Shown in pieces: positions 2,562 through 45,866 of a stretch of DNA of 64,000 nucleotides. Numbering within the stretch: position 1 is the stretch's first letter; each line of letters opens with the position of its first letter. The DNA is from Williamsia sp. 1138 (GTDB lineage Bacteria; Actinomycetota; Actinomycetes; Mycobacteriales; Mycobacteriaceae): the NCBI RefSeq assembly GCF_002095435.2, contig NZ_MJEJ02000038.1, positions 1-64,000 of the forward strand. The letters are read 5' to 3'. The position numbers were made by a program, and so were the translations under genes. The notes under the pieces were generated by a model that was not told the origin of the DNA, did not search any database, and saw only the letters and a list, made by a program, of their open reading frames with translations.

Positions 2562-2583
2562 CCTATAGGCATTAGATAAAACC
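2562..2583. promoter_or_regulatory. Island operator, copy G (before binding protein 1)
   Basis: CCTATAGGCATTAGATAAAA and the following CC match the shared operator with core CTAYAGGCATTAG. It sits 70 bases upstream of the start at 2492, between that gene and the TetR gene. The flanking GCGAAG is also shared with the paralogous promoter at 23552. Confidence 0.7.
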
Positions 2584-2649
2584 GTGTGGCCGTTTTCGAA
2601 AAGCCCACCACGATATGGATTTACAACCGCCGGCAGCGACTACAAGAGG

Positions 2650-3279
2650 CTAGTGACCAGCCCGAGGGTTCTCGGCCTGACCCCGAGGGAGCAGGGCGGG
2701 AACGAAGAACTCTCTGAGCTTGGTCCGAAATCGATCGAGGTCGCCCGCCTCGTCGCCCTGGCTGATGTAAAGCATCTCGAGTTCGGAGATCCACTCGCAG
2801 AGCAGGGGTAGGTCCAGGTCGGCGCGAAGGTCGCCGCGCTCCTGCGCTGCGAGGAGAATCGGTTCCCAGAGTTCGCGGGTGAGCTCGACCGCTTTGCCGG
2901 ACGTCACCAGCAGCGAGTTCGCCAGCGCCATTGCCGCCGGTGAGACCAGCATGTGCACCATGGGGTCCCGGAACCCGCGAGTGACGTTGTGGCAGATGCC
3001 TTCTACGATCTGTTCGCCGATGGTCGGCCACGCGGCGATGTGGTCCCGCGCGGGTCCGAAGTTCATCCGGGCGCGCCGGGCAACCGATGCCATGATCAGG
3101 CTGTCGCGATCGGAGAAGTAGCGATAGACGGTGGCGCGCGACAGGGTGGCTGCTCGTGCGACATCCTCCATCGTGGTCTTGCCGATGCCGAATTGCTCGA
3201 AGCACGATTCGGCCGCCACCAAGATCGTCGTTCGGATCTCGGCCGTCGGGTCGTTCTCCGGCTCCTTGTCGATGGTCAC
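2650..3279 (-). CDS. TetR-family transcriptional regulator
   Basis: A 209-residue one-component repressor. The N-terminal helix-turn-helix spans about residues 18-60 with K-T-T-M-E-D-V-A-R-A-A and the recognition segment T-V-Y-R-Y-F. The C-terminal ligand domain contains W-E-P-I-L-L-A-A-Q-E-R-G-D, which recurs almost unchanged in the TetR at 33310-33915, so the two are close paralogs and may sense related acyl-CoA or acid ligands. The start is GTG at 3279 with a weak ribosome site. It is divergent from the Rieske oxygenase at 3390 across about 110 bases. The position suggests local control of that oxygenase. Whether it also binds the island-wide operator is unknown. Confidence 0.9.
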   Translation of the reverse strand: MTIDKEPENDPTAEIRTTILVAAESCFEQFGIGKTTMEDVARAATLSRATVYRYFSDRDSLIMASVARRARMNFGPARDHIAAWPTIGEQIVEGICHNVTRGFRDPMVHMLVSPAAMALANSLLVTSGKAVELTRELWEPILLAAQERGDLRADLDLPLLCEWISELEMLYISQGDEAGDLDRFRTKLREFFVPALLPRGQAENPRAGH

Positions 3280-3323
3280 GGCCCTACGGTATCGCGAGTC
3301 AGGTCGACGACCATGAGACGAAA

Positions 3324-3375
3324 CACGGAATATGTCTTATGTCGTGTGAAACAATAGACACCAGATGTCTTATGT
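3324..3375. promoter_or_regulatory. Divergent promoter region with repeats
   Basis: ATGTCTTATGT occurs twice (3332-3342 and 3365-3375), 33 bases apart. The first copy is framed by ACACG/CGTGT. AGACA-N5-TGTCT forms a short palindrome around 3356-3370. This differs from the ten-copy island operator and is a candidate site for the adjacent TetR regulator. Confidence 0.4.
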
Positions 3376-3389
3376 GCCACTCTCGATGT

Positions 3390-4574
3390 ATGCAACGGGA
3401 AGACAAGATCGAACTGACCCAGCGGCTGATCGCGCATGTTGACAACAACTCGACCGACTACGCGGACGACGTTCTGCGCGTGCCGTTCTCGGCGTTCAAC
3501 GATCCCGAACTCGCGGAGTCGGAACGCCAGGTCGTGCGGCGGTTTCCGCATATCGTCGCGCACCTGGACGAGTTGCAGAAGGCCGGCGACTTCATCACCA
3601 CCACTCTGATCGGCACTCCGCTGCTGGTTGTGCGGCAACCCGACGGCAGTGTGAAGGCCTTTTCGAATGTCTGCCGGCACCGCGGTGCGAAGGTCGAGTT
3701 CGCCGAATCCGGGTGTAAGCGCATCTTCGCGTGCCCGTATCACAACTGGTCATACGGCCGCGGCGGCGATCTTCGAGGAATGCCGCACGCCGAGGGCTTC
3801 GAGGGTATGGATCGAAGTGAGTACGGTCTGGTCGAGTTCCCCTGCGAGGTACGCCATGGGCTGGTGTGGGTGGTCCCGACGGTCGGTGCCGAGATGGATA
3901 TCGCGGCGGTACTTGGTGACAAGCACGACGCGGAGGTCATCGATACCGGAATGGCCGACTCCTACCAGGTGCGCAAGGAAACCTGGAAACTCGACATGAA
4001 CTGGAAGATCGCCGTCGACGGCGTCCAGGACTCGTATCACCTGTGCCAGCTGCACACCAAGACCGTCTGCAACTACCTCGAAGGCAACATCACAGCGCTC
4101 GATGTGGTGGACCGGTCATGGCGACTTGTGGTGGCACGCAAGTCGATCACCGAGGTGCGGGATGCCGATCCGGACAGTTTTGACGTCCGGGACTATTCGC
4201 TGGCGAACTACACCGTGTACCCCGGGACAATGCTGGTCACCGAGCCGAACCACTTCGAGATCTGGACCATCGTTCCTGACACCGACGATCCGAACGTCAG
4301 CTACTGCACCATTCGGCTGCTGTCCCCGAAGAAGCCGGAGACGCCTCGCGAGGTGCGAATCCTCGAGAAGAACTGGGAGCTGTTGATGGCGACCTTGCAC
4401 GACGAGGATTGGTTCGTGACCAAGACGATCACGGACAACGCGGCACACGGTCAGGTGAAAGAACTGATCTATGGCCGAAATGAACTGCCCGGGCAGCTGT
4501 TCCACAACATGGTTGCGAGCGATGTCGTGGAACTGGAACGAGAGCGTTCGGCGCAGACCGCGTCCACCGGGTAG
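3390..4574 (+). CDS. Rieske non-heme iron oxygenase, catalytic subunit (paralog 1)
   Basis: A 394-residue aromatic-ring-hydroxylating-dioxygenase-type alpha subunit. The Rieske 2Fe-2S ligands are C95-R-H97 and C115-P-Y-H118. The mononuclear iron site is visible as N-W-K followed by D214-S-Y-H217-x4-H222. The ATG at 3390 was chosen by alignment with the paralog at 28019; an in-frame ATG at 3372 would add six residues, and neither has a good ribosome site. No beta subunit is present, so it belongs to the single-subunit-type oxygenases (like KshA or phthalate-type enzymes) that need a separate reductase; the PDR-type protein at 45896 is the obvious partner. It heads an apparent operon with the crotonase, thioesterase and CoA-transferase that follow. 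Confidence 0.92.
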   Translation: MQREDKIELTQRLIAHVDNNSTDYADDVLRVPFSAFNDPELAESERQVVRRFPHIVAHLDELQKAGDFITTTLIGTPLLVVRQPDGSVKAFSNVCRHRGAKVEFAESGCKRIFACPYHNWSYGRGGDLRGMPHAEGFEGMDRSEYGLVEFPCEVRHGLVWVVPTVGAEMDIAAVLGDKHDAEVIDTGMADSYQVRKETWKLDMNWKIAVDGVQDSYHLCQLHTKTVCNYLEGNITALDVVDRSWRLVVARKSITEVRDADPDSFDVRDYSLANYTVYPGTMLVTEPNHFEIWTIVPDTDDPNVSYCTIRLLSPKKPETPREVRILEKNWELLMATLHDEDWFVTKTITDNAAHGQVKELIYGRNELPGQLFHNMVASDVVELERERSAQTASTG

Positions 4575-4578
4575 CGAG

Positions 4579-5346
4579 ATGGCTGTCGACGAACACGGTC
4601 CATCACTGCTTGCGGAACGCCCCGCATCGGGCGTGCTCCGCCTGACCCTGAATCGCCCACAGGTTCACAACGCGATCTCGGTTGCGCTGCAGCGAGATCT
4701 CGACGACTCACTCCTGGCCGCGGCGGACGACGATGACGTGCGCGCGGTGATCATCACCGGCGCGGGGACAGACACGTTTTCTGCGGGTTACGACCTCAAA
4801 GAACTCGCTGAGATGTCATCGGAGCAGGCCGCCTCCGCGATGCTGGAGCGGGATGAGCTGCTCTGGCGTTATCTGACCTTTCCCAAGCCGACTGTCGCAG
4901 CGATTGCCGGCGCCGCGTACGGCGCCGGGACCATCATCGCCGCGTGCTCCGACCTCCGGGTCGGTGGGCCCTCGACCCGACTCACCTTGTCGGGCGCGCG
5001 GTATGGCGGGGCGAGTCTGACCTGGCTGCTGGACGACCTCGTCGGTGCGGGTCGTGCCCGGGATCTGCTCATGACATCGCGCACCGTCGACGGAGAAGAG
5101 GCTCACCGGATCGGGTTGCTCAGCCGCTACGGCAGCGACATCGCCGCGAAGGCACTCCAGGCGGCCACGGAACTGGCCGCGCAGCCGGCAGATGGTCTCC
5201 GCGACCTCAAGGCCCTGCTGCTGGACCGGCACGGCCGCGACCTCCGGGCTCGATACGACAGAGAGAACGCTCTCGCACGCAGCGCCCTCGGTAACCGGTC
5301 CGTGGCCGAGATGTTTGCGGGCTTCTTCGCCGGAGGCAGGGCGTGA
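4579..5346 (+). CDS. Crotonase-fold (enoyl-CoA hydratase/isomerase) protein lacking both usual Glu
   Basis: A 255-residue crotonase-superfamily protein starting at ATG 4579, four bases after the Rieske stop. The oxyanion-hole regions are present (S-A-G-Y-D-L-K at 68-74 and G-A-A-Y-G-A-G at 111-117). At the positions of the two catalytic glutamates of enoyl-CoA hydratase I read Ile-119 and Gly-139. Ordinary hydratase chemistry is therefore unlikely. Other crotonase reactions (hydrolysis, decarboxylation, ring or C-C cleavage of a CoA ester) are possible; the true reaction cannot be read from the sequence. Its stop overlaps the next start (GTGA), so it is translationally coupled to the thioesterase. 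Confidence 0.88.
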   Translation: MAVDEHGPSLLAERPASGVLRLTLNRPQVHNAISVALQRDLDDSLLAAADDDDVRAVIITGAGTDTFSAGYDLKELAEMSSEQAASAMLERDELLWRYLTFPKPTVAAIAGAAYGAGTIIAACSDLRVGGPSTRLTLSGARYGGASLTWLLDDLVGAGRARDLLMTSRTVDGEEAHRIGLLSRYGSDIAAKALQAATELAAQPADGLRDLKALLLDRHGRDLRARYDRENALARSALGNRSVAEMFAGFFAGGRA

Positions 5347-5978
5347 ACACGCCTGGCTGGGACGATCCCCTTGTGCCGTCGACTCCGATCGATGACGAGT
5401 TCGCCCAGTTGATCGAGGCACTTCGTGACGTTCAGGAGGCCATCACCCGGTCTAACCCCACCGCGTCCGGTGCGGCGGCGGCCGCCGAGTCGCTGCGAAC
5501 GGTGGCCGCCGGCATGCGTGACTTCGAGGTCGGGGAGGACGAACAGGTATCGGGCAAGCGGTGGGACCTGCCGGGGAGTGGTCGTGCGTTGGGTCCACCT
5601 CTGTACCTCGACACCGTCACCGAGAACACTGCAGCGGGGCGAGTGACGGTCGGCCGCTTCCACTCGGGCCGCTATGCCCTCAACGGTGGTATCACGCCAC
5701 TTGTCTTCGACGAGATCATGGCGAGGCTCGCGAACAGCTCGGGTCGGCCGTGGGCGCGCACCGCGTACCTGAACGTGAACTTCCGGGCGCCGGCGCCGCT
5801 GCACGCCGAGCTCTCGGTGACCGCTGAGCTGGTGAGCCAAGAGGGACGCAAGCGTCTTGTGCGCGGTGCCATCCACCACGGCGATGTGCTGGTGGCGGAC
5901 GCCGAGGGGCTGTGGGTCGAGCTCAAACCTGAACAGACACACAATGTCTCGAACATCACGGAGGTAGGTGGACGATGA
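5343..5978 (+). CDS. PaaI-like hotdog-fold thioesterase
   Basis: A 211-residue protein. Residues about 85-195 form a single 4HBT/PaaI-type hotdog domain, recognisable by the N-G-G-I-T-P-L-V-F-D-E-I central-helix motif and a following N-V-N-F-R-A-P strand. The N-terminal 60 residues are Ala-rich and helical. It probably hydrolyses an acyl-CoA intermediate or an unproductive CoA ester made by the neighbouring enzymes. The start is GTG 5343, overlapping the upstream stop; its end overlaps the CoA-transferase start at 5975 (ATGA). Confidence 0.85.
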   Translation: MNTPGWDDPLVPSTPIDDEFAQLIEALRDVQEAITRSNPTASGAAAAAESLRTVAAGMRDFEVGEDEQVSGKRWDLPGSGRALGPPLYLDTVTENTAAGRVTVGRFHSGRYALNGGITPLVFDEIMARLANSSGRPWARTAYLNVNFRAPAPLHAELSVTAELVSQEGRKRLVRGAIHHGDVLVADAEGLWVELKPEQTHNVSNITEVGGR

Positions 5979-7189
5979 GCGGATTCTCGTTGCTCAACGG
6001 CGTGCGGATTCTTGAAGTGGCACAACTGGCGCCGGCGTCCCTGGGTGGCCATCTGGCCGATCTCGGGGCCGAGGTCATCAAGGTGGAGTCAGGGCCACTC
6101 GGTGATCCGGTCCGAGTGGGCGGAAGTCGTGCGGTCGGCGGGCCCGATGGCCCGGCATTCATGCATCTCCGGTGGAATCGGGGCAAGAAGTCGGTGGCTC
6201 TCGATCTGCGCACCCCCGAGGGTCGGCAGGCGTTCCTCGACATCGCCCGTCCTTGTGATGCCGTGATCGAGGGGATGCGCGGAGGCTATCTCGACTGGCT
6301 GGAGATCGGTTACGACGCTCTGCGGCAGGTCAATCCGAAGATCGTCCTGTGTACGGTGTCCGGGATGGGCACCGACGGGCCGTACCACGGTCTCGGCAGT
6401 GGAGGCCCCATGTTCGACGCATACGCGGGTCTTCGTGAGGTACGCACACCTGACGAACCCCCGACCGAGGGAATGGCCGGTTCGACAACTCCGCCGATTG
6501 CCATGTACGCACTCGGCGCGTATGGGGCGATGGGGCTACTCGCGGCGTTGCACAAGGCCGGAGCGACGGGGGAGGGGAGCCACGTCGAAGTCTCCGGAAT
6601 CGACGTTGCGGCCGCCTGGATGCCCGATGGTGTTGATGCCGAGCTGAACCGAGAGCGTTCGATCCCTCGGCCCACCTGGCTCCCCGACGGTCGCCTACCG
6701 GATTGGCCGAGGCTCGAGGCCTACCGGACCAGCGATGGCGAGGCGATTCTCTTCGGATCCCACGTCGAGAAGTTCTGGCATCATTTTCTGATCGCGGTCG
6801 ATCGAGAGGACCTCGCCGATGTCGACCTCTCGAGTGCCGACCGGGAGGCGCCGGGCCGGGCGAACCTGGTCTGGCGCGAGCTGACCGGCATTTTCGCTCA
6901 GCGGACCCGTGCCCAGTGGGTCGAGCTCTTCCTCGAACACGAGATAGCCGGGGGCCCGGTCAACAGCATCCCGGACATGCTCTCCGACCCGCACTTTCGG
7001 GCGCGGGACAACACCTATCGGGTCGACCACCCCGACGTCGGCGAGCTGGAGTTCGTCGTCAGTCCGGTGCGGGTCGATGGCGAGAAGTTCGATCCCGCTC
7101 TGCCGCCGACGATGGGTGCCGACACCGAAGAGGTACTGCGCACCGTCGCCGGCTACCGCCCGGCGGAAATTTTGTCCTTGGCTGACTGA
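5975..7189 (+). CDS. CaiB/BaiF (class III) CoA-transferase family protein
   Basis: A 404-residue formyl-CoA-transferase-type protein. It opens with L-L-N-G-V-R-I-L-E-V-A and has the L-G-A-E-V-I-K-V-E strand and the R-N-K-like region R-G-K-K-S-V-A-L-D-L. Family members move CoA between an acyl-CoA and a free acid through an aspartyl-CoA intermediate. By eye, a gapless alignment with formyl-CoA transferase puts Met rather than Asp in this position (segment P-P-I-A-M-Y-A-L-G), which may be an alignment artefact or a real loss. The ATG overlaps the thioesterase stop. A strong terminator follows, closing the operon that begins at 3390. Confidence 0.88.
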   Translation: MSGFSLLNGVRILEVAQLAPASLGGHLADLGAEVIKVESGPLGDPVRVGGSRAVGGPDGPAFMHLRWNRGKKSVALDLRTPEGRQAFLDIARPCDAVIEGMRGGYLDWLEIGYDALRQVNPKIVLCTVSGMGTDGPYHGLGSGGPMFDAYAGLREVRTPDEPPTEGMAGSTTPPIAMYALGAYGAMGLLAALHKAGATGEGSHVEVSGIDVAAAWMPDGVDAELNRERSIPRPTWLPDGRLPDWPRLEAYRTSDGEAILFGSHVEKFWHHFLIAVDREDLADVDLSSADREAPGRANLVWRELTGIFAQRTRAQWVELFLEHEIAGGPVNSIPDMLSDPHFRARDNTYRVDHPDVGELEFVVSPVRVDGEKFDPALPPTMGADTEEVLRTVAGYRPAEILSLAD

Positions 7190-7245: not shown

Positions 7246-7303
7246 GGTGTTCGAGCCAGGAGCCTTGCGAGGCTTTCGAGTGTCTTGCCCCGGTTGCATC
7301 TCT

Positions 7304-7325
7304 TACCTACAGATGTTAGTTTTAC
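7304..7325. promoter_or_regulatory. Island operator, copy H (before acyl-CoA ligase 1)
   Basis: TACCTACAGATGTTAGTTTT followed by AC matches the shared operator. It is about 80 bases upstream of the ligase ATG at 7404, downstream of the terminator, and so in the expected promoter region of the 7404-18676 operon. Confidence 0.72.
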
Positions 7326-7403: not shown

Positions 7404-8945
7404 ATGAACTTGGCAGACCTGACTCGGTTCTGGGGAAAGACGCGGTCTGCACAGCAGGCCATCGTGTTCGGAGACACTGCGCAGACCTGGGCCGAGGTCG
7501 ACGCGATCACCGACGCGCTGGCTCGTGGTCTGGCGGCGCGAGGTGTGTGCAAGGGCGATCGTGTCGCTGTGATGATGCTCAATCGACCGGAACTCGCTCA
7601 TGTCATCCTGGCAACTCTCAAGCTCGGTGCGATCAGTGTTCCGCTGAACTTCCGACTCACCGCAAGAGAACTCGCGCCGATGGTGGTCGATTCCGCGCCT
7701 CGGGTCGTGGTCATCGAAGACGAGTTCTCGCCCCTGCTCGAAGTCGCCGCGACGCAGACCGATTTCGAGATCTTTGCCATCGGCGGCAGTGCGCACCCGT
7801 CATACGACGTATTGATCGACCCCGGAACCGCGCCGGATGTTGCGATCGACGCCGATGACCCGGGCTTCATCTGCTACACCTCCGGAACCACCGGAGTCCA
7901 AAAAGGTGCCTTGATCACGCACCGGAACGCGATGACCCCGGGCCTGTCCCAAACCCTCACATTCGGATTCTCCTCCGCCGACCGGGTGCTGTGTTCCGCG
8001 CCTCTGGTGTACACCGGTTCGGTGCTGTCGGTCTTCATGCAGTTGGTCGTCGTGCCCGGCGCGACCATGGTGCTGCTGCGGGAGTACGACCCCCAGATCG
8101 CACTCGATACGCTCGAGCGCGAGCAGATCACCGCCGCCACAACCGTTCCGGTTATCTGGGAGCGGATGACCACCCTCCCGGGATTCGACGGGCGAAAGCT
8201 CGCCGACTTCACCTTCGCGGGAACGGGCGGCGCGCCGGTCAGTCTCGATCTCCTGGACTTTTACCGCTCCCACGGCATTCCTTTGACGCAGTGCTACGGC
8301 CTCACCGAGGCGTCGGGGATGGTGACCACCCTGCAGTACGAGGACGCTCGGTCTCGTCCCGGATTCGCCGGGTTGCCGATGGTCGGCACCCACGTCCGAA
8401 TCGGAGATCCCAGCGTGGACACTCCGTCCGGTGACGTCGGTGAGATCCTCGTTCGGGGTGAGCATGTGTTGCGCGAGTACTGGCGCAAGCCCGAAGCGAC
8501 CGCGTCCACCTTGGTCGACGGCTGGCTGCGCACCGGGGACCTGGGCCTGAAAGACGACGACGGCTTCCTCAGGATCGTGGACCGCAGCAAGGACATGCTC
8601 ATCTCAGGTGGACTCAATGTCTATCCGGCCGAGATCGAGAATGCGTTGCACGGGATAGAAGGTCTGGTCGACCTCGCGGTGATCGGTGTCCACGACGACC
8701 GGTGGGGCGAGGTGCCGATGGTGGTCTTCCACAGTGACCGCTCCGCCGATGACATCGTGGCCGACATCGCAAAGGTCGCCGGCGAGCATCTCGCAAAGTT
8801 CAAGCAGCCGAAGCATGCTGTGGCCCTGGACGAGCCATTGCCACGCACGTTCTCCGGAAAGCTCGCCAAGCCCAAGCTGCGGCAGCGTTTTCCATCGGTT
8901 CCGGGTGAGGCGCTCGCGGTCCAGGGTGTACCGACGCAGGCCTGA
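7404..8945 (+). CDS. Acyl-CoA synthetase (ANL superfamily, FadD-like), paralog 1
   Basis: A 513-residue AMP-forming ligase that activates a carboxylic acid to its CoA thioester. The P-loop Y-T-S-G-T-T-G-V-Q-K-G, the A5 motif Y-G-L-T-E-A, the hinge G-W-L-R-T-G-D-L and R-S-K-D-M-L-I-S-G-G, and the C-terminal catalytic lysine region S-G-K-L-A-K are all visible, so it looks functional. GAGGAG precedes the ATG. It heads a tightly packed operon with the three molybdopterin oxidoreductases. Two more ligases (17153 and 31592) are more similar to each other than to this one, suggesting different acid substrates along one pathway. Confidence 0.93.
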   Translation: MNLADLTRFWGKTRSAQQAIVFGDTAQTWAEVDAITDALARGLAARGVCKGDRVAVMMLNRPELAHVILATLKLGAISVPLNFRLTARELAPMVVDSAPRVVVIEDEFSPLLEVAATQTDFEIFAIGGSAHPSYDVLIDPGTAPDVAIDADDPGFICYTSGTTGVQKGALITHRNAMTPGLSQTLTFGFSSADRVLCSAPLVYTGSVLSVFMQLVVVPGATMVLLREYDPQIALDTLEREQITAATTVPVIWERMTTLPGFDGRKLADFTFAGTGGAPVSLDLLDFYRSHGIPLTQCYGLTEASGMVTTLQYEDARSRPGFAGLPMVGTHVRIGDPSVDTPSGDVGEILVRGEHVLREYWRKPEATASTLVDGWLRTGDLGLKDDDGFLRIVDRSKDMLISGGLNVYPAEIENALHGIEGLVDLAVIGVHDDRWGEVPMVVFHSDRSADDIVADIAKVAGEHLAKFKQPKHAVALDEPLPRTFSGKLAKPKLRQRFPSVPGEALAVQGVPTQA

Positions 8946-8966
8946 CGGCGTCGCCGAGAGGTCCGA

Positions 8967-23482: not shown

Positions 23483-23551
23483 GTTCTTCGCTCCTGATCT
23501 TCGGACGATGATGTCCGGAGTGGTTTACGTCACCATGTGACGAGAGCGAAG

Positions 23552-23573
23552 CCTACAGCCATTAGTTTTAAAC
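23552..23573. promoter_or_regulatory. Island operator, copy F (before binding protein 2)
   Basis: CCTACAGCCATTAGTTTTAA followed by AC matches the shared operator. It is 70 bases upstream of ATG 23482 and preceded by GCGAAG, as at 2562. Confidence 0.75.
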
Positions 23574-25179: not shown

Positions 25180-25202
25180 AAAAACTAACGTCATGAGTTT
25201 AC
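25180..25202. promoter_or_regulatory. Island operator, copy I (before thiolase-like gene)
   Basis: AAAACTAACGTCATGAGTTT (25181-25200) has the symmetric AAACT/AGTTT arms of the shared motif. It lies about 50 bases upstream of the minus-strand start at 25128. Confidence 0.6.
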
Positions 25203-25389
25203 TTCTGCCGGCGGCTATGGCCGCCGCAGCGCTGGCGCGCCGCGCTACGTTACGTAGAACGAAATATGTCTCGATGTTCGACCAAGTCGGGAGGAATCGC
25301 AATCAGCGGACGGGATGGAAGCGTTTGGAGGGCCTTGAACAGGCCATATAAGCAGAGTCGAGCACATGACAAATCGTGATTGACGTCTC

Positions 25390-25410
25390 AAACCTATGGG
25401 AGTAAGGTTT
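25390..25410. promoter_or_regulatory. Island operator, copy J (before SDR-P450 operon)
   Basis: AAACCTATGGGAGTAAGGTT plus T keeps the AAACC/AGGTTT arms at the same spacing as copy B, but its centre is the most divergent of the set. It lies about 140 bases before ATG 25549. Confidence 0.5.
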
Positions 25411-25548
25411 CTTGATGTCAGCCAAAAGTGACCTAGGCCACTCATCGCGGACAGTACTGGCGCAGACCACACGCCCCTCGGCGCCAGAAGTTTCGAAGAC
25501 CTGGCCCGCGTCGTCGTGGGCCCGTCCCAATGACGGAGGAAACACATC

Positions 25549-27930: not shown

Positions 27931-27956
27931 TTAAACTAAAGGCTGTAGATTTAAAG
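27931..27956. promoter_or_regulatory. Island operator, copy D (before Rieske oxygenase 2)
   Basis: TTAAACTAAAGGCTGTAGAT followed by TTAAAG reads, on the other strand, as CTACAGCCTTTAG with TTTAA flanks and matches the shared motif. It is about 65 bases before ATG 28019. Confidence 0.72.
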
Positions 27957-31470: not shown

Positions 31471-31494
31471 ATAAACTATTGACTGTAGTTAAAT
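31471..31494. promoter_or_regulatory. Island operator, copy E (before acyl-CoA ligase 3)
   Basis: ATAAACTATTGACTGTAGTT followed by AAAT matches the shared motif (reverse strand core CTACAGTCAATAG). It is about 100 bases before ATG 31592. Confidence 0.72.
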
Positions 31495-33309: not shown

Positions 33310-33915
33310 ATGGCTCGCCGCAAGACCGGAATCGTCTTGTCCGCTGACATCGATGAGGCCCGGTCGCAAATCCTCATGGCGGCCCAATCGGTATTTCTCC
33401 GCTACGGGATCAACAAGACGACGATGGACGACATCGCCCGCGAATCGGGCGTCTCCCGACCGACGGTGTACCGGTACTTCAAGGACCGCGATTCGCTGAT
33501 CTCGGCACTGATCGAGATGCGCTCGCGGCTCCTGTTCGCTCGCGCCCGGGAGTTCGTGCAGAGCCAGCCGACCTTCGACGACGTCATCGTCGAAGGGCTG
33601 ATCTTCCTCATCGACAACGGCCGACGCGATCCGATCGTGCGCATCCTGGTCAGCCCGGAGCGGATGGAGTTGGCCACGGCCCTGGTCGGGAGCTCCGACC
33701 TCGCGGCCAAGCTCACGCGGGAGATGTGGGAGCCCATTCTGCTCGCCGCTCAGGAGCGAGGTGACGTGCGGACCGACGTGAGTATCGACGAGATCAACGA
33801 GTGGTTCGCTCTGCTGCAGTTCATCCTGGTCGGCCGACTCGATTTCGCTCGTGCCGACGACCCTGCGCATCGCAAGCTCATCAGAACGTTTGTCCTTCCC
33901 TCACTTCGGCCCTGA
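33310..33915 (+). CDS. TetR-family transcriptional regulator (paralog of the one at 2650)
   Basis: A 201-residue repressor. The helix-turn-helix lies at about residues 18-60 (K-T-T-M-D-D-I-A-R-E-S-G-V-S-R-P-T-V-Y-R). The ligand domain carries W-E-P-I-L-L-A-A-Q-E-R-G-D-V-R, nearly the same as in the regulator at 2650. AGGAG precedes ATG 33310. It ends 15 bases before the convergent enoyl-CoA hydratase. Its location in the middle of the island makes it a leading candidate for the protein that binds the ten-copy operator, but its own promoter shows no clear copy. Confidence 0.92.
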   Translation: MARRKTGIVLSADIDEARSQILMAAQSVFLRYGINKTTMDDIARESGVSRPTVYRYFKDRDSLISALIEMRSRLLFARAREFVQSQPTFDDVIVEGLIFLIDNGRRDPIVRILVSPERMELATALVGSSDLAAKLTREMWEPILLAAQERGDVRTDVSIDEINEWFALLQFILVGRLDFARADDPAHRKLIRTFVLPSLRP

Positions 33916-34810: not shown

Positions 34811-34836
34811 ATTTAATCTACAGGCATAAGGTTATC
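34811..34836. promoter_or_regulatory. Island operator, copy C (divergent promoter)
   Basis: ATTTAATCTACAGGCATAAG followed by GTTATC matches the shared motif. It is about 77 bases from the minus-strand start at 34734 and 45 bases from the plus-strand start at 34881, so one site could control both. Confidence 0.72.
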
Positions 34837-38315: not shown

Positions 38316-40736
38316 ATGACCAACGGCAAGGATCTGCCATTGTCGGGAATCAGGGTGCTCGACCTCGTCGAGGGACTCGGTGAATCGTGTGGACGCTACC
38401 TGGCCGACCTCGGGGCCGAGGTCATCCGTGTCGAACCTCCGCGTGGTTCCCGCTCGCGCCGTGCGGGTCCCGTGATCGACGGCGTCAGCATCCCGTTTGC
38501 GCTGCGCAACGCGGGGAAGCTCGGGATCACTCTTGATCTGGCGGCGGTTGCCGATCGTGATCAGCTCCGTGACCTGGTCATCGACGCCGACATCCTGCTC
38601 GAATCGGCTGCGCCTGGCACGATGGCCGATCTGGGCCTGGGCCCCGATGATCTCCGAGCCCTCAATCCCGCTCTGGTGTACGTCTCTGTCACCGGGTTCG
38701 GGCAGACCGGGCCGTACCGTGAGTGGATTGCGACAGAACCAGTGCTCTACGCACTCGGCGGGGTGTTGTCTCGATCGGGCGCGCCGGGTGAGGTTCCGCT
38801 GTTGCCGCCCACCGGGCTCGTCGAGGGTGCCGTCGGCGTCCATGCTGCGTGGTCGGCACTGCTGGCGTACTACCGGGGTCTGGAGACCGGCGCCGGCGAC
38901 CTGGTGGACATCTCGGCGTACGAGGTCGTCGTACACGGTTTCGATCCGGGCTTTGGAACTCAGGGTTCGGCGGCCGCCGGACGGTCGGAAGACTATCCCC
39001 GAGGCCGTCCCGATGCCGCGAACTTCTACCCCGTCTTCCCCTGCGCCGACGGGCACGTACGCATCTGCCTTCTCGCAAAACGACAGTGGCGCGGGATGTT
39101 CGAGTGGCTGGGAGAACCAGCAGAGTTCGCGGACCCCAAATACGACACCATCCCGGCCAGATTCGCCGCGGCAGACCGGCTCGACCCGCTCATCGCCGAG
39201 CTGTTCGCGGCCCACACGCAGGCCGAACTCGTGTCCGAGGGGGCGCGTAGGGGTGTTCCGGTCGGAGGGGTCCACACCCTGGCCGAGGTGCTGGCCACCG
39301 AACACTTCGCGGAGGCCGGATCGCTGGTCGATGCCGAGATCGCTCCGGGGGTACGGACCAGGATTCCGTCGGGCTACGTCGGCATCGACGGGCGTCGGGC
39401 CGGGTTCGTCCGTCGCGCACCACTGGTGGGCGAGCACAATCGTGCCCTGCCGCCGGTGCCGGGCCTGCGGGTCGAATCGACTGTGTCGACGGATCGCTCG
39501 GCGCCGCCGCTGGCCGGACTGCGGGTTCTCGACCTCGGTGTGATCGTGTTCGGTGCCGAACTCAGTCGCCAGTTCGCGGACCAGGGTGCGGACGTCATCA
39601 AGGTCGAGAACGCGAATTTTCCGGACGGATTGCGGCAGTCCAAGCGTGGTTCCGCACTCGCGGCGTCGGTCGCGTGGGGGCACCGTAACAAGCGCAGTAT
39701 CGGACTGGACCTGCGCAACCAGGATGGGCTCGCGCTGTTCAAAGAACTTGCGGCGCAAGCCGACGTGGTGCTGGCCAACTTCAAGCCCGGGACGTTGAAC
39801 TCGATGGGTCTGTCGTATGACGAGCTGGCGGCCATCAATCCGCGCATTGTGGTTGCCGAAGGCAGCGCGTTCGGTAGCTCGGGACCCTGGCGGACCCGGC
39901 TCGGGTACGGACCGCTGGTGCGCGCTTCGTGCGGGGTGTCCGCGTTGTGGCGTTATCCCGACAACGCCGAACTTCTCTGTGACGGTTCGACCGTCTACCC
40001 CGATCACATTGCCGCGCAGGTGTCCGCCGTGGCGGTGCTGGCGACTTTGATCGAACGCACCACGTCGGGTCGCGGCCGAGCCATCGAGGTCGCTCAGGCG
40101 GACACTGCTCTTATGCAACTGGGCGTTCAACTGGTGACGCAGGCGCTGATCCCGGGCAGGGCGGGCGTGCCGGGCAACAGCGACCCTTACGCGGCCCCGT
40201 CCGGTGTGTACGCGTGTGCCGGGGATGATGAGTGGTGTGTGGTCTCGGTGACCGAAGACCTGCAGTGGGTCCGGTTGTGCGAGGTGGCCGGTCTGGCCGA
40301 TCTCGCGGAGGACAACGCCCTCGATTCGGTTGCCGGCAGAGTGGAGAACAGGCTCCGGATCGATGATGCTCTCGGACAGTGGATGTCAGCGCGATCGCCT
40401 GCAGAAGCGATGACGCAGTTGCAGTCCGCGGGCATCCCGGCAGGTGTGATGCGACGACTTCCGGAGCTGCTGGAGGACCCTCAGCTGGTGGCGCGAGACG
40501 CCTACCGCCGGCTGGACCACGACCTGTTGCCCTCGGGATTACCGGCGGCCACTCGGGTGGCAAAATTTCGCCACATACCCGATCCGCCGATGCGGCAGGC
40601 GCCGCTTGCCGGTCAGCAGAGCAGACAGATCTGTGCTGAGGTGCTCGGGCTCGATGACGGTGCCATCGATGACCTCATCGACAGCGGCGTTCTGCAGGTG
40701 TCCGTCGACATCACGTCGACGACACCGAGGTCCTGA
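38316..40736 (+). CDS. Tandem-domain CaiB/BaiF CoA-transferase
   Basis: An 806-residue protein made of two full class III CoA-transferase domains, about 1-385 and 398-800. Both begin with the G-I/L-R-V-L-D-L strand and repeat the L-G-A-E-V-I-R-V-E / Q-G-A-D-V-I-K-V-E motif. At the position of the aspartyl nucleophile of formyl-CoA transferase (Asp-169) the first domain has Glu-170 and the second has Asp-563, so the halves may have diverged into one catalytic and one structural or altered site. Class III transferases work as interlocked dimers, so a fused form could be a pseudo-dimer. ATG 38316 is one base after the ALDH stop. Confidence 0.9.
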   Translation: MTNGKDLPLSGIRVLDLVEGLGESCGRYLADLGAEVIRVEPPRGSRSRRAGPVIDGVSIPFALRNAGKLGITLDLAAVADRDQLRDLVIDADILLESAAPGTMADLGLGPDDLRALNPALVYVSVTGFGQTGPYREWIATEPVLYALGGVLSRSGAPGEVPLLPPTGLVEGAVGVHAAWSALLAYYRGLETGAGDLVDISAYEVVVHGFDPGFGTQGSAAAGRSEDYPRGRPDAANFYPVFPCADGHVRICLLAKRQWRGMFEWLGEPAEFADPKYDTIPARFAAADRLDPLIAELFAAHTQAELVSEGARRGVPVGGVHTLAEVLATEHFAEAGSLVDAEIAPGVRTRIPSGYVGIDGRRAGFVRRAPLVGEHNRALPPVPGLRVESTVSTDRSAPPLAGLRVLDLGVIVFGAELSRQFADQGADVIKVENANFPDGLRQSKRGSALAASVAWGHRNKRSIGLDLRNQDGLALFKELAAQADVVLANFKPGTLNSMGLSYDELAAINPRIVVAEGSAFGSSGPWRTRLGYGPLVRASCGVSALWRYPDNAELLCDGSTVYPDHIAAQVSAVAVLATLIERTTSGRGRAIEVAQADTALMQLGVQLVTQALIPGRAGVPGNSDPYAAPSGVYACAGDDEWCVVSVTEDLQWVRLCEVAGLADLAEDNALDSVAGRVENRLRIDDALGQWMSARSPAEAMTQLQSAGIPAGVMRRLPELLEDPQLVARDAYRRLDHDLLPSGLPAATRVAKFRHIPDPPMRQAPLAGQQSRQICAEVLGLDDGAIDDLIDSGVLQVSVDITSTTPRS

Positions 40737-40824: not shown

Positions 40825-40849
40825 GTAAACCGACAGGCAATAGGTTTAC
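40825..40849. promoter_or_regulatory. Island operator, copy B (before SDR-ALDH operon)
   Basis: GTAAACCGACAGGCAATAGG followed by TTTAC has perfect seven-base arms GTAAACC/GGTTTAC, one of the most symmetric copies. It is 80 bases before ATG 40929. Confidence 0.78.
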
Positions 40850-40928: not shown

Positions 40929-41753
40929 ATGACACGACTCGAGGGCAAGGTCGCCTTCATCACCGGTGCTGCCCGAGGGCAAGGCCGGTCGCACGCCATC
41001 AGGCTGGCGGAGGAGGGCGCGTCGATCATCGCGATGGACATCTGCGATCAGATCCCGACGGTCTTCTACTCGATGGCAACGACCGACGATCTGGCAGAAA
41101 CCGAACGGCTCGTGAAAGAGGCGGGTGGTTCGATCGTCACGTCGGTCGGCGACGTGCGCGACATCGCCGACGTGCGCCGCGCGTACGACGCGGGCATCGA
41201 ACAATTCGGCAAGGTCGACATCGTCCTGCCCAACGCCGGCATCATGCCCGTCATCGGAGACGGCGAGAAGCCGCAGGCGTGGCATGACTCGATCGACGTC
41301 ATGCTGACCGGTGTCTGGCATGTCCTCGAGGTCACCGTGCCCGGACTCATCGAGCGTGGCGAGGGCGGGTCCATCGTCATCACCAGCTCGGCCGCCGGCC
41401 TGACCAGTATCGGGCTGAACACTTTTCCCGGGCAGGCCGGCTATTCCGCCGCCAAGCACGGCGTGGTGGGACTCATGCGGTTGTACTCGAAGCAATTGGC
41501 GAAGCACTCCATTCGCGTCAACACGGTGCATCCGACCGGCGTCAACACCCCCATGGTGGCCAACGCCGAATACGGCGCGTTCGTCAATGCACACCCCGAG
41601 GTCGCGAACGACGAATCGTACAAGAATCCGATGCCTGTCGAGCTCATCGAATCCGTGGACATCAGCAACGCGATCGTCTTCCTGGTCTCCGACGAGGCCC
41701 GCTACGTCACCGGCGTGACCCTTCCCGTCGACGCCGGCTACAACAACCGCTGA
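40929..41753 (+). CDS. Mycofactocin-coupled-type SDR (carveol-dehydrogenase-like)
   Basis: A 274-residue SDR of the actinobacterial subfamily marked by T-G-A-A-R-G-Q-G-R-S-H-A (12-23) and D-I-C-D-Q-I after the second strand, with a characteristic insertion near residues 43-57. The catalytic Ser-153, Tyr-172 and Lys-176 are present. Family members hold NAD tightly and pass electrons to mycofactocin; carveol dehydrogenase of Rhodococcus belongs here. It therefore supports a terpenoid or cyclic alcohol substrate. AGAGGA precedes the ATG. The ALDH at 41767 follows after 13 bases, giving an alcohol-to-acid pair. Confidence 0.92.
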   Translation: MTRLEGKVAFITGAARGQGRSHAIRLAEEGASIIAMDICDQIPTVFYSMATTDDLAETERLVKEAGGSIVTSVGDVRDIADVRRAYDAGIEQFGKVDIVLPNAGIMPVIGDGEKPQAWHDSIDVMLTGVWHVLEVTVPGLIERGEGGSIVITSSAAGLTSIGLNTFPGQAGYSAAKHGVVGLMRLYSKQLAKHSIRVNTVHPTGVNTPMVANAEYGAFVNAHPEVANDESYKNPMPVELIESVDISNAIVFLVSDEARYVTGVTLPVDAGYNNR

Positions 41754-41766
41754 TCGAAGGAGCAAC

Positions 41767-43266
41767 ATGACCACCATCGAAACCCCCACCGACTCCATGC
41801 CCGGGATCGCTGACCGAGAGCAGGTCTTCATCGGTGGCGAGTGGGTGGAATCCACCGGCGACGAGTGGATCGACCTGGTCGATCCCTGGACAGAACGTAA
41901 CGTGGCCAGAATTCGCACGGCCACAGAGGAAGACGTGGCTCTCGCGGTGAATGCTGCCCGTACCTCGTTCGATTCGGGCGAGTGGGCTTCGAAGTCGATG
42001 GCCGAGCGCGCAGATGTCATCGACAAGATCGCCGATCGCCTCGAGGCGCGCGCCGAGGAGCTCGTCCCGATCGGGGTGGTCGAAGTCGGTATCCCTGTTG
42101 TGGTCAGCACCATGACCCAGCAGATGGTCGGTGGCCTGTTCCGCGCGGTTGCCGCCGAAGCGCGGAACTTCGAGACACGCGAGGACCGGACCCGTGGCGA
42201 CGGGGGAGTCTCCCGCATCCTCAAGGAGCCGACCGGCGTTGTCGCTGCCATCATTCCGTGGAACGGCCCGATCGGCACGGTGGCCTTCAAAGTCGCTCCC
42301 GCGCTTGCCGCAGGATGCTCCGTGGTTCTCAAGACGGCGCCCGAGGCTCCGTTGTCGACCTCGGTCTTCGCCGACATCCTCGGTGAGCTCACGGCCGAGG
42401 GATTGATTCCGCGCGGCGTGATCAGCGTCCTGTGCGCCGATCGCGAGGTGTCCGAGTCGTTGGTCACCAACCCCGAGGTCGACCACATCACGTTCACCGG
42501 CAGCACCCTTGCCGGCCGACGCATCATGGCTCTGGCCGCAGAACGGGTCGCCAAGGTCTCACTGGAGCTCGGCGGCAAATCAGCGGCGATCATTCTCGAC
42601 GACGCCGATATCAATGATGTGCTGCAGTCACTTCCGATGGGCGGGTGCATGCAGAGCGGCCAGGCGTGTATCGCTCTCACCCGAGTGCTGGTGTCGAGCA
42701 AGCGTCACGACGAGCTCGTCGACGCACTCAGGGCGGCCTACGGCGGCATCCCGATGGGCAATCCGTGGGAGCAGACCAACTTTCTCGGACCACTCGCGAT
42801 GGAACGTCAGCGCGACCGGGTGGAGAGCTACATCGCCTCGGCGAAAGAAGACGGCGCCACCGTGATCCTGGGTGGGGGTCGCCCGGCCGGCATCGATCAC
42901 GGGTACTTCATCGAGCCGACACTGATCGACGGTGTCCGCAACGACATGAAGGTGGCGCAGGAAGAGGTCTTCGGCCCTGTGATCTCGATCATCACCTACG
43001 AAGACGAGGCCGATGCCATTGCGATCGCGAATGATTCGATCTACGGACTCTCCGGAGCGGTGTACACCACCGACCTCGACCATGGATTCGAGGTGGCACA
43101 GAAGATCCGGACCGGAACCATCAGCGTGAATGCGGCGATCATCGACTTCACCCTGCCGTTCGGTGGCTACAAGCAGTCGGGTATCGGACGGGAAGGCGGC
43201 GTGGAGGGCCTCGAGGAGTTCTTCGAGATCAAGACCGTTCATATGCCGGCGCCTGCGGCCGACTGA
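41767..43266 (+). CDS. NAD(P)-dependent aldehyde dehydrogenase (paralog 2)
   Basis: A 499-residue ALDH with Glu-267 in L-E-L-G-G-K, Cys-301 in S-G-Q-A-C and I-P-W-N-G (163-167). AAGGAG precedes ATG 41767. It probably oxidises the aldehyde made by the upstream SDR. A strong bidirectional terminator follows. Confidence 0.94.
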   Translation: MTTIETPTDSMPGIADREQVFIGGEWVESTGDEWIDLVDPWTERNVARIRTATEEDVALAVNAARTSFDSGEWASKSMAERADVIDKIADRLEARAEELVPIGVVEVGIPVVVSTMTQQMVGGLFRAVAAEARNFETREDRTRGDGGVSRILKEPTGVVAAIIPWNGPIGTVAFKVAPALAAGCSVVLKTAPEAPLSTSVFADILGELTAEGLIPRGVISVLCADREVSESLVTNPEVDHITFTGSTLAGRRIMALAAERVAKVSLELGGKSAAIILDDADINDVLQSLPMGGCMQSGQACIALTRVLVSSKRHDELVDALRAAYGGIPMGNPWEQTNFLGPLAMERQRDRVESYIASAKEDGATVILGGGRPAGIDHGYFIEPTLIDGVRNDMKVAQEEVFGPVISIITYEDEADAIAIANDSIYGLSGAVYTTDLDHGFEVAQKIRTGTISVNAAIIDFTLPFGGYKQSGIGREGGVEGLEEFFEIKTVHMPAPAAD

Positions 43267-43338: not shown

Positions 43339-43983
43339 CTATGCGGATTCGACGATGTCGAGCTCGTGATCGCGCATGATGCCGTGCAGAAAACTGCGGA
43401 TCATTTCTTCGAAAAGCTGCTTGGAGTTGTATTCGTTGGCTGCCAGTGCCTCGGTCAGCAGCGGCTGGGAATGCTTGTCGACGTTGGTGAAGATCGTCGA
43501 GCGGGTGCTCTGCTTGCGTACGGCTTCCATCATCACCGCGCCGATGGAGATGGTCTCCATGCCGTCCAAGATCTGCACGTGCAGCTCGATCGGGACTCCG
43601 GAGTCGAGGAGGAACTGCGCCACCTCCTCGTAGCTTCCGGTGAGGACGTCCCGGGGGAGGTAGTTCAGCAGCAACGGCGCGGCATTACGATGCCGCAGGA
43701 TCGCGCGACGGAAGTTCAATCCGAGCTGGACGAAATACTCGGGCCAGTTGGGGCCTGGTTTTCGACGAGGCCGGGCGACATCAGCACCGGCGATATGGCG
43801 AGCAACAGCCGACAGTATCTCCGACTTGTCCGAGAAATGATGGTAGAGCGAAGGCGCCCGCACGCCGAGTTGCTTTGCGATGCGGGGGAGGCTCAGGGCG
43901 TCGAGTCCGTCGGCGTCGATGATCTGCAGCGAGGCTTCCACGACAGTGGCGCGGCTGATGAGCGGTGTTGATGGCCGGGGCAT
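43339..43983 (-). CDS. TetR-family regulator (tetracycline-repressor-like C-terminal domain)
   Basis: A 214-residue repressor of a different subgroup from the other two in the window. The HTH is at about residues 12-52 (L-S-L-P-R-I-A-K-Q-L-G-V, S-L-Y-H-H-F). The C-terminal all-helical domain resembles TetR_C (A-P-L-L-L-N-Y-L-P, G-V-P-I-E-L-H). It is transcribed leftwards and ends at the shared terminator. No copy of the island operator lies in its promoter, so it may serve the hydrolase/SDR pair to its right or an unrelated set. Confidence 0.88.
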   Translation of the reverse strand: MPRPSTPLISRATVVEASLQIIDADGLDALSLPRIAKQLGVRAPSLYHHFSDKSEILSAVARHIAGADVARPRRKPGPNWPEYFVQLGLNFRRAILRHRNAAPLLLNYLPRDVLTGSYEEVAQFLLDSGVPIELHVQILDGMETISIGAVMMEAVRKQSTRSTIFTNVDKHSQPLLTEALAANEYNSKQLFEEMIRSFLHGIMRDHELDIVESA

Positions 43984-44124
43984 GTCAGATCGATTCCCGC
44001 GAGGTGGCGGTGACGCGGACAGATTGCATGTGTACGGATACTAGTCCTCCTACCTCCCCGATCGCGGCAGGACAGTGCCGTGGGAGGGCGGTGAAAACCT
44101 TCAGCTGGTAGGTGCCTCGTGGGT

Positions 44125-44991
44125 TCACGGTCGTGCGGGCGGTACATCGGTGTCGAGGAACTCCACCAGCCCTTGGCTGAGTACGCCGTTGTCGTCGCCG
44201 CTGACCATGTGCCCCGCCCCGCCGACGTCGATGTGCTTCGATCCGGGGATGGCCTGGAGTAGATCCTCCGCACCGTCGGCACTCACCACATCGGATTGAG
44301 CGCCCCGGATCAAGAGCGTGGGTACCGTGATCGATCTCGCTGCGCCGCGTGCCCTGACCTCGCGTGCCGCGGCGACGTCCGGCCCGTTCTCGCTGTGTTC
44401 GAGCAGGCGTGGATCCCAATGCCAGTACCAACGGCCATCCCGGCGGCGGAGGTTCTTCTGTAACCCCTCTTCACGCGGGGGCCGGGAGCGTGTCGGGTTG
44501 TAGGCGACCACCGCATCGACGGCGTCTGCGAGCGTGTCGAAACCTCCGAGGCCGGATTCCATGAACTGTCGGATTCGCTCGATCCCGGCGGTCTCTGCCT
44601 TCGGGGTGATGTCGACGAGAACCAGAGCCCGGCCGAGCTGGTATTCCGCCTGGGCGGTGAGCGCTGCCATTCCGCCCATGGAGGCCCCGACAAGAACGGG
44701 ACTCGTATCGAGGGCTCCTGCTACGGCACGGATGTCGCGGGCTTGTGCGGAGCTGCTGTAGTCGCCGTCTTTCGCCCATTGACTGCCGCCGTGACCACGA
44801 GCATCGATCGAGTAGGCGGTCCAGCCGTGCTGGGCGAGCCGAATGCCGGTGCTCTGCCACGAGTGCCGCGTCTGACCGCCACCATGGAGCAGCAGGACGT
44901 CGCCTCGGCTGACTCCGGCCGGTACCCACCGGTCGGCAGCGAGGTCGACGCCGTCGCCGGGCAAACGCAAGTGGTCGCTTTCTGTCTGCAT
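44125..44991 (-). CDS. Alpha/beta hydrolase (paralog 1)
   Basis: A 288-residue alpha/beta-hydrolase-fold protein. The oxyanion motif is L-L-H-G-G-G, the nucleophile elbow G-A-S104-M-G-G, and a late G-A-G-H-M supplies the catalytic His. It may hydrolyse an ester, lactone or C-C bond of a ring-cleavage product. It sits 39 bases after the SDR at 45031, in the same direction, so the two are probably one operon controlled by operator copy A. Confidence 0.9.
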   Translation of the reverse strand: MQTESDHLRLPGDGVDLAADRWVPAGVSRGDVLLLHGGGQTRHSWQSTGIRLAQHGWTAYSIDARGHGGSQWAKDGDYSSSAQARDIRAVAGALDTSPVLVGASMGGMAALTAQAEYQLGRALVLVDITPKAETAGIERIRQFMESGLGGFDTLADAVDAVVAYNPTRSRPPREEGLQKNLRRRDGRWYWHWDPRLLEHSENGPDVAAAREVRARGAARSITVPTLLIRGAQSDVVSADGAEDLLQAIPGSKHIDVGGAGHMVSGDDNGVLSQGLVEFLDTDVPPARP

Positions 44992-45030
44992 GTGTTGATC
45001 CCCTTGTGTGTTGAGTCCGCGTGCGGTGGG

Positions 45031-45810
45031 TCAGTGTCCGGACGTGCCGCCGTCGACGGCGAGCGTCGAGCCGGTGATGTAACCGGCGCCGCGGCCCGCG
45101 AGAAACACCACTGCTGCGTCGATCTCTCGCTGCGTAGCGGTCCGGCCCAACGAGCAGCCTCGGAGGAACTCAGCGAGAGTGTCCGCATCCATGTCGCTGA
45201 TCATGTCGGTATCGACAAAGCCGGGCGCTATCGCGTTGACGCGAATGCCCTTGCGCTGCGCCCACTGGTTCGACAGATCGCGGGTCAATCCGATCAGGCC
45301 TGCCTTGCTGGACGCATAGGCGGCTTGCGGTAGCGCTGATTTGACCAGACCGAGCATGCTCGAGATGTTGACGATGCTCGATCCTGGTTTCATCACGCGA
45401 GCGCACGATTGGGCCATCCAGTACGCCCCGAACAGATTGACCTCCAGCACTTTACGGTAGTCGTCTGGGTTCTCTCGCGTCGCTGGGGCAGCATGTGTGA
45501 CGCCGGCATTGTTGACGAGGATGTCCAGTCGTCCGAACTCGGCCACAGCGGCGGCGGCGAGGTCGTCACACTGCGCAGGGTCGGTGACGTCGGTCGGGAC
45601 AACCAAGCACCGTCGTCCCTGTTCGGCAACCGACTTCGCAACCTCTTCGAGCAGATCTCTGCGCCGGGCAGCGACCACGACATCGGCGCCGGCATCGGCG
45701 AGTGCGCGTGCGAAACCTGCCCCGAGTCCGCTGCCCGCTCCGGTGATCACGGCGACCGAACCGTCGAGCCTGAACACATCGAGGATCGAACTGCTGCGTG
45801 AACTGTGCAC
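45031..45810 (-). CDS. Short-chain dehydrogenase/reductase (SDR)
   Basis: A 259-residue classical SDR with T-G-A-G-S-G-L-G (23-30), N-N-A-G (100-103), Ser-150/151 and Y165-x3-K169. The A-R-R-R after the second strand favours NADP(H). GTG 45810 was chosen because GGGAAGG lies eight bases upstream. It is divergent from the reductase at 45896 across 85 bases that contain operator copy A. Confidence 0.92.
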   Translation of the reverse strand: MHSSRSSSILDVFRLDGSVAVITGAGSGLGAGFARALADAGADVVVAARRRDLLEEVAKSVAEQGRRCLVVPTDVTDPAQCDDLAAAAVAEFGRLDILVNNAGVTHAAPATRENPDDYRKVLEVNLFGAYWMAQSCARVMKPGSSIVNISSMLGLVKSALPQAAYASSKAGLIGLTRDLSNQWAQRKGIRVNAIAPGFVDTDMISDMDADTLAEFLRGCSLGRTATQREIDAAVVFLAGRGAGYITGSTLAVDGGTSGH

Positions 45811-45840
45811 TGTGGCGACCTTCCCATCGGCTGCGCTACC

Positions 45841-45866
45841 ATTAAACTAATGACATAAGGTTTAAT
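45841..45866. promoter_or_regulatory. Island operator, copy A (divergent promoter)
   Basis: ATTAAACTAATGACATAAGG followed by TTTAAT, with ATTAAAC and GTTTAAT arms, is the clearest palindrome of the set. It is centred about 43 bases from both the minus-strand start at 45810 and the plus-strand start at 45896. Confidence 0.8.

Follow-up and report, generated by a model that had tools for sequence, protein, structure and literature searches.

A ten-copy palindromic site in a catabolic island of Williamsia sp. 1138 and TetR3, its likely TetR-family regulator

In a 64,000-nucleotide stretch of the Williamsia sp. 1138 genome (contig NZ_MJEJ02000038.1, positions 1 to 64,000; hereafter the window), ten copies of an imperfect palindrome stand before the transport and catabolic operons of a single gene island. 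We consider it likely, from sequence comparisons, that a single repressor of the TetR family operates through all ten sites: TetR3, which is related to the tetracycline repressor and ActR and is encoded in the same island. Two further TetR-family regulators of the island, TetR1 and TetR2, probably do not bind the ten-copy site.

A sequence-only reading of the window had described ten palindromic sites, and these proved to be real. All seven 16-mers that it quoted are unique in the window (2562, 23552, 7306, 27934 (-), 31474 (-), 34817 and 40830), at an offset of 0-6 nt from where they had been placed, some positions being off by 2-6 nt. Both pairs of seven-base arms were also located, GTAAACC/GGTTTAC at 40825/40843 and ATTAAAC/GTTTAAT at 45841/45860. 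The consensus, approximately taAaYCTAmnGnYnTTAGdTTwa, is a 23-bp, odd-centred imperfect palindrome. As had been claimed, no copy lies inside a gene: all ten are intergenic under a heuristic gene call, in an island of which only 8.5% is intergenic. They are also close to start codons, the gap to the nearest called start being 24-138 nt across the ten sites (15 nt if LivK1 starts at the ATG at 2543).

A matrix was built from seven of the sites and scored the three on which it was untrained at 22.7 (45839), 16.9 (25177) and 10.6 bits (25387); a genic position, 28771, outscores the weakest of these at 11.4 bits. When the seven were left out in turn, six scored 19.8-26.8 bits, with 6-9 window positions above them. 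Site 2562, left out together with its twin at 23552, was weak (10.5 bits, 16 window positions above). These two sites are not independent because they lie in the promoters of paralogous LivK genes. The two promoters (2530-2590 and 23520-23580) are alike beyond the operator, as if copied along with the gene. With a matrix retrained on the window and orthologue sites, the window gave 10 matches at 14 bits or more, whereas 60 column-permuted matrices averaged 0.22 and never gave more than 2.

We then placed the site within the whole genome (6,080,935 bases in 54 contigs), of which the window (C39:1-64000) makes up 1%. The pattern AMCTACAGNCATTAGKT at up to two mismatches was found in 10 places, 6 of them in the window, and at up to three mismatches gave 36 matches, 10 of them in the window, against 74 for the reversed control; since this control exceeds the pattern, clustering is shown but not a genome-wide excess. 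The pattern WWAYCTAMNGNYNTTAGDTTWA, tuned on window and orthologue sites, occurred at up to three mismatches in 10 distinct places, 9 of them in the island, with 5 matches for its reversed control. In keeping with the regulon that had been claimed, scanning this genome did not find the site equally often inside genes or before unrelated genes. The tenth WWAYCTAMNGNYNTTAGDTTWA place, C6:34257-34279 (L186:9258-9280), precedes an enoyl-CoA hydratase-like open reading frame (ORF), whose start was read by eye, by about 28 nt and possibly marks a distal member of the regulon.

Moreover, the site is conserved. A search for TetR1 homologues returned 64 loci, of which 19 (L030-L048; 52-97% TetR1 identity, 363 kb) formed a close set from Williamsia, Rhodococcus, Aldersonia, Nocardia, Gordonia and Amycolatopsis, the nearest named relative being Williamsia soli (TetR1 97%). 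A Rhodococcus jostii strain (L031) has TetR2 as well as TetR1. The other 45 loci, with distant TetR genes (726 kb), served as control. The seven-site matrix, trained on the window only, found 45 matches at 16 bits or more in the close set versus 3 in the control, and once retrained on the window and L030-L048 it found none at 14 bits or more in the control. The site stands before Rieske2 in all ten Rieske2-containing loci of further genomes and before AMPlig1 in L170-L175, and in various loci of further genomes it precedes orthologous ALDH2, FdRed/SDR3, AMPlig1, Thiolase1/DUF35, SDR1 and SDR2. The claim of one operator governing essentially one regulon is thus well supported by sequence, as the same orthologous operons carry the site in many genomes of the Mycobacteriales. 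An exception is the island's Rieske1-ECH-thioesterase-CaiB operon, which bears a different element. That part of the earlier interpretation stood; its nomination of regulators was not supported.

To ask which regulator tracks the site, TetR1, TetR2 and TetR3 protein searches and a site pattern search were run on the same 401 genomes of the family. At thresholds of E<=1e-40 for TetR2 and E<=1e-30 for TetR1, 44 genomes carry one or both (43 have TetR2, 30 have a complete TetR1 and one more has part of it), and TetR3 is present in all 44 at 65-100% identity. Pattern counts, taken on both strands so that a palindrome can count twice, had a median of 17 (range 4-25) in these carriers and of 1 (range 0-34) in the 344 genomes without any of the three regulators, whilst the reversed pattern had a median of 4 in both groups. 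Matches exceeded the control in 44/44 carriers versus 53/344 regulator-free genomes (Mann-Whitney p = 4e-27 on matches minus control, with relatedness uncorrected).

The remaining 13 genomes have TetR3 only. Seven site-bearing genomes (G290, G361, G281, G097, G083, G221 and G164) have TetR3 and, at the search thresholds, neither TetR1 nor TetR2. In G290 all 16 pattern matches fall within one 60-kb homologous island, with TetR3 at 51%; its best TetR2 match, retrieved only at E<=1e-8, is 33% identical. The other six have local sites around TetR3, although G097/G083 and G221/G164 resemble near-copies of each other. Twelve TetR3 stretches from TetR3-only genomes held 12 sites at 14 bits or more (permuted mean 0.60, maximum 3). 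In G223 three pattern matches occur within 6.3 kb (C1:5198770-5205047), distant from its TetR3 at C1:1627297.

An independent test came from searching 298 genomes of the order for TetR3. Of the 8 genomes with a match, five belong to three other families. The six TetR3 stretches taken from these five genomes all hold sites, 16 at 14 bits or more in 110 kb versus a mean of 0.10 (maximum 1) for 60 permuted matrices, and their TetR3 homologues are 45-57% identical, with a 43% second copy in L245. In four of the six (L245, L247, L248 and L249) the site lies 26-103 nt upstream of TetR3 itself. As L249 shares no other gene with the window (E 1e-12), site and TetR3 travel alone there. No TetR1 or TetR2 homologue was found in the six stretches, to which the search for these two was confined. 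L245 (6681-13092) carries its two TetR3 homologues (43% and 57%) each with an upstream operator copy, at 82 nt and at 26 and 67 nt respectively.

Several observations weigh against TetR3 as the sole determinant of the site. Six of the 344 regulator-free genomes have counts at least 4 above control, and of the 13 TetR3-only genomes just 3 have a whole-genome count above control. Six of these 13 (G375, G223, G359, G081, G395 and G182) have no site in the stretch around TetR3, so TetR3 alone does not predict the site, and the site-less genomes keep the same helix as the site-bearing ones. Within the family, 27 of 30 TetR3 loci lack a site at 14 bits or more within 1.5 kb upstream of TetR3 and 3 have one; the gene order SDR3-Abhyd-TetR3 occurs in 18 of the 30, and in these the operon begins farther upstream than the 1.5 kb covered. 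Twelve TetR3 loci were also searched for palindromes under stricter rules; this gave none, even in loci with matrix matches, and is hence uninformative. Lastly, no clear element of its own could be assigned to TetR2, and therefore TetR2 or TetR1 could also bind the ten-copy site.

The evidence on TetR1 is clearer. Between TetR1 and Rieske1 lies a different element, TGnCACATGAGACAn5TGTCTAGnGTCTTAT, found in the window and in all 19 loci holding both genes (25 loci examined; three of the 19 are repeats of a species). It is absent from the ten sites, and a model built from the same sequences scored 14 or more nowhere else in 61 loci and nowhere in the 726-kb control. A weaker second copy at 3313 is the sole other match in this window. 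The element also covers the Rieske1 promoter region, and so part of its conservation may be that of the promoter. We think it likely from this arrangement that TetR1 has a separate operator. TetR1 was at first favoured as binder of the ten sites, given the site-rich L030-L048, many with a site 60-90 nt upstream of TetR1, and was dropped because of the separate element shared by TetR1-Rieske1 loci and the site-bearing genomes lacking TetR1 and TetR2. The two candidates named by the sequence-only reading, TetR1 (2650) and TetR2 (33310), fit worse than TetR3. Among 35 TetR2 upstream stretches, Gordonia-type and some others show GACA...TTGTATC by eye, which is only suggestive; it was not evident upstream of TetR2 in the window itself (L098) or in several other stretches, and a gapped-palindrome count found nothing common to more than 8 of the 35.

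A reading in which TetR2, by itself or together with TetR1, is the binder of the ten-copy site and TetR3 a passenger is quite unlikely. TetR2 occurs in 43 of the 44 carriers and lies behind site 31471, its own promoter in the window has no evident separate element, and in several Nocardia and Gordonia loci the site is found between TetR1 and Rieske1. Furthermore, the 13 carriers without a close TetR1, nine of which have a single match to the TetR1/TetR2 pair, all still exceed control. However, this leaves the seven site-bearing genomes without a close TetR2 and the TetR2-free stretches of other families, and TetR1, the paralogue of TetR2, has its own conserved element. Unlikely too is that TetR3 acts as an activator, or that it competes with TetR1 and TetR2 such that two signals are integrated at each site. 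In its favour, there are genomes in which each of the three regulators has such a site over or next to it, and every one of the 44 carriers has retained at least two of the three. Against it, the TetR1 element and the ten-copy site are different sequences, and promoter-like pairs put the site on or over the -10 at 31471, 34813 and 25389, an arrangement that suits occlusion. At 31471 a -35/-10-like pair, TTGACA-16-TATAAA, runs into the site and overlaps its end, and at 34813 and 25389 the best -10 is inside the site; this promoter overlap was not scored against chance.

The sites might also be a chance or compositional pattern of A/T-rich promoters, being themselves A/T-rich within a sequence of 64% G+C, and the genome-wide excess of the reversed AMCTACAGNCATTAGKT control at three mismatches fits such a view. 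We regard this as highly improbable: four sequence sets each gave 10-17 matches against permuted-matrix means of 0.10-0.60 (maxima 1-3), the 45 control loci gave none, and the orthologous placement of the site recurs.

TetR3 matches PF00440, the N-terminal TetR_N helix-turn-helix (1.8e-11, 44.1 bits versus a cut-off of 24), and its residues 10-201 align with Tet repressors including 1qpi, a TetR-operator complex (phmmer 3e-18). An AlphaFold monomer model (pLDDT 86) was compared by Foldseek, and the top matches were ActR and Tet repressors (2opt at rank 1, 1qpi at rank 10, also 3fk6 and 6rbl; probability 1.00), with a query TM of 0.59-0.73 among the best 50 listed. The predicted fold thus places TetR3 in the TetR/ActR structural class. 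Its segment V-x-A-P-S/A-L/I-Y-H/Y-H-F (VRAPSLYHHF) is kept in the window and in all 28 TetR3 homologues examined, whether or not they have a local site. Identity to TetR2 is 24% over 136 columns. TetR3 is not a tetracycline repressor proper, scoring 96.5 bits versus the NCBIfam PRK13756 equivalog cut-off of 265. Its likeness to the tetracycline repressor TetR/ActR (PF02909; 1qpi, 2opt) extends over residues 10-201 and to an odd-centred palindrome with CTA/TAG at positions +-4 to +-6, but identity is only about 24%, and where the tetracycline repressor controls an efflux pump, TetR3 is proposed to control a ten-site catabolic regulon.

The operator bears on the same comparison. Across 159 distinct sites, picked by the matrix, the core is CTA-nnG-n-Cnn-TAG with A/T arms. 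Complementary pairs occur in 99% of these matrix-chosen sites at +-6, 84% at +-8, 81% at +-5, 66% at +-4 and 28-49% at the others, the inner three pairs being complementary in 28-47%; strong outer and weak inner complementarity make this an imperfect palindrome. The tetO2 sequence, TCCCTATCAGTGATAGAGA (PMC11686294), has C-6 T-5 A-4 / T+4 A+5 G+6 in common with the ten-copy site and in the same register, whereas the inner positions +-1 to +-3 of tetO differ. The ten-copy site is thus not a tetO-type operator (CTATCAnTGATAG), as only the outer CTA/TAG triplets match in register.

We propose that a TetR3 dimer would bind the odd-centred palindrome CTAnnGnCnnTAG with its A/T-rich arms. The palindrome overlaps or adjoins the promoters of the operons for transport, CoA ligases, Rieske proteins, P450, thiolase/aldolase, ALDH, SDR and reductase, and bound TetR3 would keep these operons off; through site 45842 it would control its own SDR3-hydrolase-TetR3 operon in negative feedback. 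The releasing ligand would be an intermediate of the pathway, for which an alicyclic acid or the CoA thioester of such an acid is the most likely candidate. TetR1, and possibly TetR2, may add local control at a second level by way of other elements, of the GACA/TGTC type, with TetR2 itself under one of the ten sites. More broadly, and only tentatively, since we put it at somewhat under an even chance, TetR3 may represent an undescribed lineage of the tetracycline-repressor class in at least four families of Mycobacteriales, in which the tetO-register CTA...TAG is kept and the inner bases are re-specified. It would act as master switch of an uncharacterised degradation of alicyclic terpenoid- or steroid-like compounds, with two TetR paralogues, at least one having a different operator type, as local switches in a two-tier circuit. 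Coordinates are collected in Table 1.

Table 1. Copies of the operator, regulators and associated features in the window.
Feature	Coordinates	Strand	Context
Operator copy	2558..2580	+	upstream of LivK1 (1302-2543 or 2468, -)
Operator copy	7302..7324	+	upstream of acyl-CoA ligase 1 and downstream genes including molybdopterin oxidoreductases (7404-18676; presumed operon extent)
Operator copy	23548..23570	+	upstream of LivK2-LivF-LivHMG (23482-18776, -; presumed operon)
Operator copy	25180..25202	-	upstream of thiolase-like Thiolase1 (23650-25128, -)
Operator copy	25389..25411	+	weakest copy; upstream of SDR1-P450 (25549-27905); missed by the WWAYCTAMNGNYNTTAGDTTWA genome pattern
Operator copy	27931..27953	-	upstream of Rieske2-MshD-like-ACAD (27977-31408)
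Operator copy	31471..31493	-	upstream of acyl-CoA ligase 3-TetR2 (31592-33915)
Operator copy	34813..34835	+	between ECH2 (33931-34734, -) and DUF35-like-Thiolase2-ALDH1-CaiBx2 (34881-40736, +)
Operator copy	40826..40848	+	upstream of SDR2-ALDH2 (40929-43266)
Operator copy	45842..45864	no strand	divergent promoter of FdRed (45896/45926, +) and SDR3-hydrolase-TetR3 (45810-43339, -)
TetR3	43339..43983	-	tetracycline-repressor/ActR-class regulator; proposed binder of all ten sites
TetR1	2650..3279	-	proposed local regulator of its own gene and the Rieske1 operon
TetR2	33310..33915	+	TetR1 paralogue, 48% identity; behind site 31471
GACA/TGTC-type element	3346..3379	-	between TetR1 and Rieske1; proposed TetR1 operator
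Rieske1-ECH-4HBT-CaiB operon	3390..7189	+	without the ten-copy site in this genome

Most proteins of the island were annotated by Pfam and NCBIfam scans, whilst LivF, LivK2 and acyl-CoA ligases two and three owe their names to similarity of sequence. The island encodes LivK-type binding proteins, a fused LivHMG, acyl-CoA ligases, molybdopterin oxidoreductases with an Fe-S/FAD reductase, two Rieske oxygenases and a reductase, a P450, an acyl-CoA dehydrogenase, enoyl-CoA hydratases, two thiolase-like proteins, two aldehyde dehydrogenases (ALDHs), short-chain dehydrogenases/reductases (SDRs), a CaiB protein, a fused double CaiB and the three TetR genes. The LivHMG fusion is a single ORF (18776-21514) of two permease domains and an ABC ATPase, and the double CaiB a single ORF (38316-40736) with two CaiB domains in tandem. 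Between flanking acyl-CoA ligases, at 8967-17156, stand three tandem molybdopterin oxidoreductases and one Fe-S/FAD reductase; the former resemble formate dehydrogenase alpha but score below the cut-off. The left window edge (2-736, -) holds a fragment of a DUF222 protein. A search of a plasmid collection found one 35% relative of TetR1 and no match to Rieske1.

With regard to the substrate, the nearest Protein Data Bank (PDB) relative of the P450 is a CYP125-type reconstruction, followed by CYP101D1/camphor and cineole P450s, and that of Thiolase2 is 6ok1, recorded as a lipid-transfer protein, which we take to be the steroid side-chain aldolase Ltp2. The closest relatives of Rieske1 are oxygenases of aromatic compounds, those of phenylpropionate and phthalate among them, and SDR2 is a mycofactocin-coupled SDR above its NCBIfam cut-off. 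These likenesses are hints of a possible substrate, an alicyclic acid that carries a side chain. Our best reading of the sequences is that the TetR3 regulon may serve the pathway of an alicyclic, terpenoid- or steroid-like, acid.

The KstR2 and KstR sterol regulons of actinobacteria resemble the proposed TetR3 regulon in that a TetR-family protein governs a catabolic island by way of palindromes at several of its promoters (PMC3068626); they are also autoregulated, as TetR3 may be. KstR2 has an even 14-bp motif, AnCAAGnnCTTGnT, at three promoters, versus an odd 23-bp site at ten here, and base counts of the 159 distinct sites lack AnCAAGnnCTTGnT, in agreement with the sequence-only reading that the site is not the KstR2 motif. 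The 51 PDB matches of TetR3 include no KstR chain; those of TetR2 do include KstR2. The mycofactocin regulator MftR is likewise an actinobacterial TetR-family repressor, and the island holds the mycofactocin-coupled SDR2; however, the MftR site, T-N2-GGCA-N5-TGCC-N2-A (PMC8728441), differs from the ten-copy site. Neither operator nor island was named in the open-licence PMC literature searched, where only top-ranked matches were considered, which is weak evidence of absence.

In summary, these sequences describe a genuine, well-conserved local regulon, of moderate novelty given that TetR-family catabolic regulons are common. Of its three TetR genes, the two that were suspected at first are a poorer fit than the remaining one; therefore, assigning an operator to the nearest TetR gene is risky. 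TetR3 and its site are candidates for the regulator and operator of a gene set that, judged by TetR1/TetR2 as markers, occurs in 44 of the 401 sampled genomes of the family. With such a pair in hand the regulon can be drawn computationally in each genome, and distant members such as the C6 candidate may be identified. Moreover, the pair offers a natural comparison for how a protein of the Tet-repressor class changes its operator, and, were the switch inducible as proposed, its ligand would reveal the substrate of the pathway.

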